Source: Deltaproteobacteria bacterium
Lineage (GTDB): Bacteria > Desulfobacterota > Desulfobacteria > Desulfobacterales > Desulfatirhabdiaceae
Assembly: GCA_016219185.1 (NCBI GenBank)
Contig: JACRBZ010000011.1
Span: 1 to 64,000 of the forward strand
Direction of reading: 5' to 3'
DNA length: 64,000 nucleotides
This document shows positions 41,111-43,695 of the stretch, piece by piece; within the stretch, counting starts at the first letter, position 1; every line of letters starts with the position of its first letter. Made by a program: the position numbers and the translations under genes. Under the pieces are notes generated by a model, which worked only from the letters and a program-made list of their open reading frames with translations, did no database searches and had not been told where the DNA came from.

Positions 41111-41716
41111 TTAAAAACGCCGGCCCTGCAACGCGACGATGGCCTCAATCGGCTCGCCGATTTCTTCGTTGAGCTGCCGCATGAACGTCTCCGCCCGCTC
41201 CCGCGCGCGATCGAGCCTGCTCAGGAAGAAGTCGTTGTCGGCGTTGCGCTCACGCAGGGACGCGAACCGGCGATCGAGAGTGGTCGGCGTATCGTTTTCG
41301 ATCAGGAAATCGACCAGGGGCACGAGCCGCTCCTCGACCGTGCGTGGGACAAAGTCACGTGCCGGCAGACCGAACCGGGCCGCTTCACAAGCCTCAAGGC
41401 CGAACAGGATGTGAGATGCGCAGACGTGCGCCTCTTGCCCGTATCCCAGCCTCGTCAGCAGATCGTAACCCGCGAGGCCATGCCTGATCGGATCATGCGT
41501 GACATACCTGCCGATGTCATGAAGGAGAGCAGCCGACCAGAGGAATCCCTGATCGATCACACGGCAACATCCCAGGACTGACCCCACGCTTGCCGCCGCA
41601 TCCGCGACGGCAAAGCAGTGCTTCGTCCAGGCGGCCCCTCTGCCATACTCCACCATGAGTCCCGTTGCCTCATTGCGCGAAAGCGTCATCTCGGCTGCAA
41701 TGGCCCGGCACATCAT
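41111..41716 (-). CDS. HD-domain protein
   Basis: TKHCFAVADAAASVG...ALLHDIGRYVTHDPIRHGLAGYDLL. Confidence 0.8.
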   Translation of the reverse strand: MMCRAIAAEMTLSRNEATGLMVEYGRGAAWTKHCFAVADAAASVGSVLGCCRVIDQGFLWSAALLHDIGRYVTHDPIRHGLAGYDLLTRLGYGQEAHVCASHILFGLEACEAARFGLPARDFVPRTVEERLVPLVDFLIENDTPTTLDRRFASLRERNADNDFFLSRLDRARERAETFMRQLNEEIGEPIEAIVALQGRRF

Positions 41717-42960
41717 TCTCCCGAATCCCCTTGCTCCAGATTGAATGTCCCGGCGGCAATTTCCTGATCCATCTCCGACAGGGCCCGACGCACCTGTTTC
41801 AGGGCCTGCCTGATCCTGTTTTCATTTTCAACCAGGGCCAGGCGCAGGTATCCGTCGCCTTCTTCTCCGAAACCGGCGCCCGGGGCAACCGCAACATTGG
41901 CCCGGTTCATCATTTCCACCGAAAAGCGGATGGATCCCATCCGGACGTAGGGTTCCGGAATCCTGACCCAGAGGAACATCCCCGCCTTCGGCACATTCAC
42001 GGTCCACCCCATCCGGACAAGGCCGTCGCAGAGGACATCGCGGCGTTTCTGGTAGACCGCGACCTGCTCCGTGATGCTGTCATCGCAGTCGCGCATGGCA
42101 ACGATTCCCGCCACCTGAATCGCCGAGAAGATTCCGTAGTCATAATATCCCTTGATCTTTGCAAGGCCTCCGACCATTTCTTTGTTGCCCACGCAATAGC
42201 CCAGACGCCAGCCGGCCATGTTATAGGATTTGGAGAAGGATCCGAATTCGACACCCACGTCCATGGCACCGGGAACTTCGAGAAAACTGGGCGCCACATA
42301 ACCATCGTAAGTGATCTTCGCGTAGGCGAAATCATTGATGACCATGAAATTGAATTTCCTGGCAAGCGTGACGATTTCCTGGAAGAACTCCTTTGAGGCA
42401 ATGATCCCGGTCGGATTGTGGGGATAATTCAGCATAACGAGTTTCGGGCCGGGGTAAAGGGCTTTGCACATGCCGGTAAGCTGCCTGATGAACGATTCCT
42501 CCGAGTCAAGGGCAATGCGAAGGACGCTGGCACCAGCGATCACGGCCGCATAGACATGGATCGGGAAGGCGGGCGCCGGGACCAGAACCGTATCACCCGG
42601 GCCGAGCAGCGCAAGGCACAGATGCGAGATCCCTTCCTTGGAACCGATGGTGCAGATCACATCGTCGTTCCCGTTCAGGTTGACATCATAATGACGGCCA
42701 TAGTAGAGCGCTATCTCTCGCTTCAGGTTTTTCATCCCCCCTGCCACCGGATAGCGATGGGTCTTTGGATCCATCGCCACATCGCAGAGTTTGCCCGTTA
42801 CCTGCTCGGGGGTGGGATCAATCGGGTTTCCCATCCCCAGATCAATCACATCATCGCCATTCCAGCGTTTTTCCATCTTGATTTTGTTGATCATCCCAAA
42901 CAGATATGGCGGAAGCTGGTTCATACGATCGGCAAAACGAATTTCAAATTCCTTATTCAT
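41713..42960 (-). CDS. Class I/II aminotransferase, alanine-aminotransferase-like
   Basis: VIDLGMGNPIDPTPEQV...GSKEGISHLCLALLGPGDTVLVPAPAFP...PHNPTGIIASKEF...GSFSKSYNMAGWRLGYCVG. Confidence 0.9.
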   Translation of the reverse strand: MNKEFEIRFADRMNQLPPYLFGMINKIKMEKRWNGDDVIDLGMGNPIDPTPEQVTGKLCDVAMDPKTHRYPVAGGMKNLKREIALYYGRHYDVNLNGNDDVICTIGSKEGISHLCLALLGPGDTVLVPAPAFPIHVYAAVIAGASVLRIALDSEESFIRQLTGMCKALYPGPKLVMLNYPHNPTGIIASKEFFQEIVTLARKFNFMVINDFAYAKITYDGYVAPSFLEVPGAMDVGVEFGSFSKSYNMAGWRLGYCVGNKEMVGGLAKIKGYYDYGIFSAIQVAGIVAMRDCDDSITEQVAVYQKRRDVLCDGLVRMGWTVNVPKAGMFLWVRIPEPYVRMGSIRFSVEMMNRANVAVAPGAGFGEEGDGYLRLALVENENRIRQALKQVRRALSEMDQEIAAGTFNLEQGDSGE

Positions 42961-43064
42961 GGTATTCTCCTTTTGGAATTACCGGCAAGTTCCGGAAAAA
43001 ACCAACGCCCGAAAGAAAACGATAGTGAACACAACATAAACCTCGTACCATCCGGCCAGGCAAT

Positions 43065-43103
43065 AAAAAAACGCCATGGACCGGAGATACAGTCCATGGC
43101 GTT
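43065..43103 (-). terminator. Intrinsic terminator (attenuator) in the leader of the aminotransferase gene
   Basis: Minus strand AACGCCATGGAC-TGTATCTCCG-GTCCATGGCGTT followed by a T run: 12-bp perfect stem, 10-nt loop, seven consecutive T including the end of the stem. Confidence 0.88.
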
Positions 43104-43147
43104 CAGTAACGATTTGGTCGTTGAATTTTAAAAAAGGCGGCTGAACG

Positions 43148-43207
43148 TCAATGGACCCAATCCATGGCGGCGGCCGCTGCATACATCCGATATCTTTTCA
43201 TGTTCAT
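43148..43207 (-). CDS. Alanine-rich leader peptide MNMKRYRMYAAAAAMDWVH (attenuator leader)
   Basis: ATG at 43207, TGA at 43148-43150; five consecutive Ala codons GCA GCG GCC GCC GCC (43166-43180) just before a mutually exclusive hairpin set and terminator upstream of an aminotransferase. Confidence 0.75.
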   Translation of the reverse strand: MNMKRYRMYAAAAAMDWVH

Positions 43208-43312
43208 TTTCCCGGTTATTATGCTTTGCAATTGTAACACGTTGTGACAACAATAGAATATCAAATCGAATATGTCAACATAGGATACGCCGTGAGCCAA
43301 CTTGTCGGCCTT

Positions 43313-43695
43313 CTACTTATTGTAGGCTGGCCTGAGGCCCTTCAACATGGGGAAGTGTTTAATGTTAAGCGTTTTCAACTCTGCATTTTCGGCTTCCGCG
43401 GTAGCAGCCAGGATAGCATCTGCAAGACCGACGCCATGAGACTTGCCATAATCCCGTTTGTAAAGGCCTCCGGCCCTCCCGATCTCGGCGTTTACAGGAA
43501 CAACACGGAACAGGGAGACAAACTCCCGTAGAGCAGCTTGCTCCGCATCTCCTTTCACTCCGGCATATAATTCCGCTACAACAATGGCTGAAAGGATGAT
43601 GCGGACATGGTGTGTGTTAATGAAGGCCACAGCTTTCCCATGACCCCGAAAAAATCAACAAGAACATCCGTGTCTAAAAGGATCGGCCGAACCAT
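43313..43695 (-). pseudogene. VapC-like PIN-domain toxin with -1 frameshift at T6
   Basis: Start MVRPILLDTDVLVDFF in one frame; continuation RGHGKAVAFINTHHVRIILSAIVVAELYAGVKGD... in the -1 frame; junction at GAT TTT TTC GGG. Confidence 0.8.

Follow-up and report, generated by a model that had tools for sequence, protein, structure and literature searches.

A putative alanyl-tRNA-sensing attenuator with two successive terminators upstream of a probable alanine aminotransferase gene in Desulfobacterota

What controls transcription of the class I/II aminotransferase gene on the minus strand of the window (the whole 64,000-nucleotide stretch of contig JACRBZ010000011.1 that was analysed)? The original prediction placed a short ORF with five consecutive Ala codons and a set of alternative RNA helices upstream of this gene, and read them as attenuation of the trp/his type. 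The ORF and its Ala codons are found as placed (table 1), and the 1:2 (ATGGA/TCCAT) and 2:3 (GTCCAT(TGA)CGTTCAG with CTGAACGCCATGGAC) pairings are present as written; the 3:4 terminator is present as well, although its stem had been given too short and is really 15 bp followed by T7. Absent from the prediction were the promoter of the leader transcript, segment 5, the alternative helix 4:5 and a second, tandem terminator, 5:6. We conclude that the element very probably attenuates transcription by a ribosome-mediated mechanism, with alanyl-tRNA as the sensed molecule and the gene of a probable alanine aminotransferase as the target. This reading is based on sequence comparison, which covers the frame of the leader, its Ala run, five helices and the linkage in the genomes.

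Table 1. Features of the leader element and its neighbourhood in the window
Feature	Position	Strand	Evidence
Promoter of leader transcript, sigma-70-like, TTGACA-17-TATTGT	43250..43278	-	10/12 consensus matches
Leader peptide ORF MNMKRYRMYAAAAAMDWVH*, 19 codons	43148..43207	-	sequence; frame kept in homologues
Second in-frame ATG of leader ORF	43199..43201	-	sequence
Five Ala control codons, GCA GCG GCC GCC GCC	43166..43180	-	run kept in homologues
Segment 1 (ATGGAT), partner start of segment 2	43160..43165	-	1:2 covariation, swap test
Segment 2 (GTCCATTGACGTTCAG), contains leader stop codon; partner 1 or 3	43141..43156	-	2:3 covariation, swap test
Segment 3 (CTGAACGCCATGGACTG), partner 2 (antiterminator) or 4 (terminator)	43090..43106	-	fold, covariation, swap test
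Segment 4 (CGGTCCATGGCGTTT), 3' arm of terminator hairpin 43069..43104; alternative partner segment 5	43069..43083	-	fold, covariation, swap test
T run of first terminator (T7, ending at 43065)	43065..43071	-	sequence
Segment 5 (TGCCTGGCCGGA), can still pair with segment 4	43051..43062	-	duplex energy
Segment 6 of second terminator, decayed, without T run in window	43038..43050	-	comparison with homologues
Controlled gene, class I/II aminotransferase, probable alanine aminotransferase	41713..42960	-	Pfam PF00155, NCBIfam
Ribosome-binding site AAAAGGAG of aminotransferase gene	42967..42974	-	
HD-domain protein, 4-base overlap with aminotransferase gene	41111..41716	-	ORF positions, Pfam HD
PIN-domain (VapC-like) ORF, just upstream of leader promoter	43313..43630	-	ORF positions, Pfam

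In the window the 64-nt segment that holds 3:4 folds at -28.4 kcal/mol (z -7.7 against shuffles, none of 200 being as good), and the 4:5 duplex has -18.4 kcal/mol. Helices 2:3 and 3:4 share segment 3 and are thus mutually exclusive, an antiterminator against an intrinsic terminator, and both coevolve (below). With alanyl-tRNA plentiful, the ribosome would pass the Ala codons, reach the stop codon and cover segment 2, upon which segment 3 would pair with 4 and transcription would end in vivo at the terminator. With alanyl-tRNA scarce, it would stall on the Ala run, leaving segment 2 free to pair with 3, so that the terminator would be blocked and the enzyme gene transcribed. In most relatives segment 4, released by 2:3, would moreover pair with segment 5 and disarm the second terminator 5:6 too, and one decision would in this way govern both terminators.

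Orthologues were first gathered by the aminotransferase protein, without use of the leader. Among those whose upstream sequence was long enough, about 20 (Desulfobulbaceae and some Desulfobacterales) have a short ORF with an Ala run about 130-240 nt upstream of the gene, and alternative helices and a terminator come after it; many other orthologues in this sample are without any leader. A covariance model was then used for a search within the Desulfobacterota, and the element was found in further families and orders. Directly downstream of nearly every strong match lies an aminotransferase with 64-92% identity, and there are two exceptions. In one (L171) a MerR-HTH/resolvase (IS607-like) insertion stands between leader and enzyme, as it also does in L203:126-3217, where the Ala leader is intact. 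In the other (L181:1501-1633, minus strand) the gene behind an Ala-leader-like element, whose run is shorter (AMAAAT), codes not for an aminotransferase but for an EamA-family transporter, possibly an amino-acid exporter. A link between such leaders and EamA transporters, considered also for the gene after the aminotransferase at L033, was dropped, as the two transporter proteins are not similar. Most weak matches to the RNA model were likewise rejected as Ala leaders: they are terminators that arose by chance or leaders of another type (Trp, Phe, Phe/Tyr, Leu).

The model-guided alignment A4 contains 60 distinct homologues, all of them from Desulfobacterota. Of these, 57 have a run of four or more Ala codons, a figure that is partly selected because the collecting RNA model includes the Ala-codon positions, a bias of which the protein-driven sample is free. 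The run is codon-periodic over 4-6 codons, its third codon positions vary, and the flanking residues differ widely between clusters. An ATG no more than 11 codons away starts the Ala frame in 53/60; the counts for the other two frames are 7 and 2. A sigma-70-like promoter site precedes the element in 54 homologues (5.6 expected), and the distance from the fifth codon to segment 2 is 7 nt in 57. By this comparison, the short ORF with tandem control codons that characterises the attenuator class appears to be a genuine part of the element. The leader stop codon had been predicted to lie inside segment 2, which is true in the window but is a minority arrangement in the family: the stop is 30-33 nt past the first Ala codon, as in the window, in 7/60, and 42-57 nt past it in most. 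Some leaders are degenerate, one lacking the Ala run (L008) and another having AASA in its place (L071). Others are decaying, with an in-frame TGA ahead of the Ala run (L033:2796-2937) or a stop directly after four Ala codons (L081:2783-2933), and in a genome of the window's genus (L185) the terminator is kept and the leader ORF is gone.

Covariation was assessed by a swap test, in which segments were exchanged among 27 sequence clusters with one representative each (20000 permutations; deeper kinship is still in this design). Own partners are better than swapped ones for 1:2 (z -5.1), 2:3 (z about -4.7 to -5.2), 3:4 (z -5.7), 4:5 (z -7.9, own better in 27/27 clusters) and 5:6 (z -7.9), and for these five adjacent helices none of the 20000 permutations was as good. 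The non-adjacent pairs 1:3, 1:4, 2:5, 3:5 and 4:6 show little or no effect in the same test, and 2:4 (z -3.0) and 3:6 (z -2.4) show a weak one. The test took A4 solely for cutting out the segments, and 2:3 and 4:5 are its less biased parts, since the alignment model held only 1:2, 3:4 and 5:6. Column covariation counts agree with it; these were made on A4 because the MAFFT alignment A1 misplaced five sequences (L034, L035, L044, L061, L071). Alignment of orthologous leaders had been set beforehand as the check on the prediction, and its outcome is that the Ala-run ORF is kept and that 1:2, 2:3 and 3:4 carry compensatory changes.

Hairpin 5:6 is followed by at least five T in seven bases in 51/60 homologues, the T run of the first terminator is present in 45/60, and 36/60 have both terminators; the window and its 96% relative (L032, which is L003 in A4) have lost the T run of 5:6. 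From these alternating helices the family appears to be a six-segment relay with the topology of the his operon leader, 5:6 having decayed in the window itself, and the predicted read-through set is 2:3 plus 4:5, the termination set 1:2 plus 3:4 plus 5:6. Attenuation of the trp/his type is in this sense supported, with a two-terminator family that is closer to his than to trp. We modelled the two states with RNA ending before segment 4, a 13-nt ribosome footprint and everything upstream of the ribosome masked. In 60/60 members 2:3 stays formed while the ribosome is on the third Ala codon and is lost when it stands at the stop codon. In the model without a ribosome, many members, and the window with them, favour 2:3 over 1:2, so that the sequences do not clearly encode termination in the absence of translation.

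Alanine transaminase AlaC (NF006033) is the best of the 67 NCBIfam models listed for the controlled enzyme, at 502.9 bits against an equivalog cut-off of 647, and the best match in a PDB sequence search is 2x5d, a "probable aminotransferase". Alanine is the probable product as judged from the leader codons. Other Desulfobacterota leaders (L102, L103, L105, L112, L186, L191, L195, L197) share the tandem-terminator layout and have codons for Trp, Leu, Phe or Phe/Tyr in place of Ala: Trp codons precede TrpB-like enzymes and TrpD, Leu codons LeuA, Phe/Tyr codons 2-amino-3,7-dideoxy-D-threo-hept-6-ulosonate synthase, and Phe codons a DAHP synthase/prephenate dehydratase fusion. The match of codon to pathway holds in every case and speaks for alanine as what the aminotransferase makes. 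In one of these sister leaders (L103) segment 4, by eye, pairs perfectly with segment 5, so the relay may be general in Desulfobacterota. Three further loci (L153, L154, L155) combine this terminator format with short ORFs that contain Phe codons (GGFFF), and the protein behind the second of these is without a match to any NCBIfam model. The aminotransferase gene and the overlapping HD-domain gene are probably co-transcribed.

The Ala run itself could be read in other ways. The leader peptide might arrest the ribosome by its own sequence, in response to a small molecule or an antibiotic and not to a shortage of alanyl-tRNA, and VHW or AW does follow the run in many members; but the VHW codons belong to segment 2 and are constrained by its pairing with segment 3, the residues around the run vary widely as noted above, and Trp, Leu, Phe and Phe/Tyr runs stand in leaders of like layout before genes of the matching pathways. 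We consider an arrest peptide very unlikely. The GCN repeat might also be kept for RNA structure, at the base of the 1:2 hairpin, the response then being to general translation speed. The run does pair and coevolve with the region after segment 2 (z -4.8), and in the window GCGGC pairs with GCCGC; constraints of coding and of structure can coexist, however, and a purely structural repeat would account neither for the frame bias with respect to ATG, nor for codon periodicity with free third positions, nor for the pathway-matched codons of other amino acids that stand there in the sister leaders. Such a repeat seems to us highly improbable as the whole explanation.

A further alternative, a chance ORF beside a hairpin that merely terminates the upstream PIN-domain (VapC-like) gene, can draw on the presence of that gene on the same strand, but a consensus promoter separates it from the leader, homologues with different upstream genes (a TPP enzyme, a radical SAM protein) retain the whole element, and the alternative helices covary. 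The intergenic promoter, the frame test and the covariation rule this candidate out for practical purposes, and we give it almost no weight. An attenuator that reads alanyl-tRNA thus remains the preferred reading, and we think it likely that there is an Ala-specific attenuator, of which we found no earlier report, in several Desulfobacterota orders and that in it a single choice, timed by the ribosome, switches two consecutive intrinsic terminators on or off.

Leader-bearing genes group strongly on a tree of 87 orthologues, with 8 changes for the leader group against a mean of 28 after shuffling (6 changes if degenerate leaders are scored as present), and no leader was found in the sampled Desulfocapsaceae and several Desulfobacteraceae. 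The window's enzyme clusters with Desulfobulbaceae-type sequences, and a close copy is absent from most congeners of its genome, which together suggests that gene and attenuator were transferred jointly.

The window has no Rfam match at the gathering score, and the Rfam His, Trp, Thr and Leu leaders and the T-box gave none up to E 10 for five members. In line with the suggestion that an Ala leader attenuator was undescribed, no report of one was found in a search that covered the open PMC full texts. The closest known system is the his attenuator of Salmonella and E. coli (PMC4046918; Rfam RF00514), whose six-segment leader forms B:C and D:E when it reads through and has its terminator in E:F (PMC4046918). 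The two share a control-codon run in a short ORF, the six-segment topology and an extra hairpin between control region and terminator; they differ in codons (His against Ala), lineage and gene, and the middle hairpin 3:4 of the Ala element is itself a terminator with a T run, which gives it two. A modelling study suggests a lower basal read-through as the effect of the extra hairpin in the his leader (PMC1183508), and by analogy the second terminator would do likewise. With the trp attenuator (four-segment model, PMC1183508) the Ala element shares the 1:2, 2:3, 3:4 logic and stalling on control codons, and the window's own element stands close to that model because its 5:6 has decayed; the two are not related in sequence, the Ala element having Ala codons and, in its homologues, segments 5 and 6. 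The uORFC-8-2 motif upstream of cysS in Rhodobacterales (PMC8632094) is also a leader-peptide attenuator found by comparison and specific for a non-classic amino acid, but it has Cys codons, precedes a tRNA synthetase gene and belongs to Alphaproteobacteria. The tandem attenuators of Salmonella mgtCBR (PMC3641672), one of which reads Pro codons, similarly place two attenuation steps in one leader; they depend on two ORFs, with two signals independent of each other, and have no recognisable intrinsic terminators, whereas the single ORF of the Ala element would set both terminators through a chained helix.

For Rfam, a 2013 survey names amino-acid leader attenuators of four kinds, His, Leu, Thr and Trp, with Ile/Val and Phe characterised besides (PMC3766115), and other work adds Cys (PMC8632094) and Pro (PMC3641672); Ala would lengthen this list. 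The two-terminator relay would be a compact design that tests how far one folding decision carries along a nascent RNA, and its natural variants, with the second terminator lost, the leader degraded or the leader absent, are available for comparison. The leader also suggests a likely product for an uncharacterised aminotransferase family, and it may show, at the level of regulation, how well sulfate reducers and related anaerobes are supplied with alanine.
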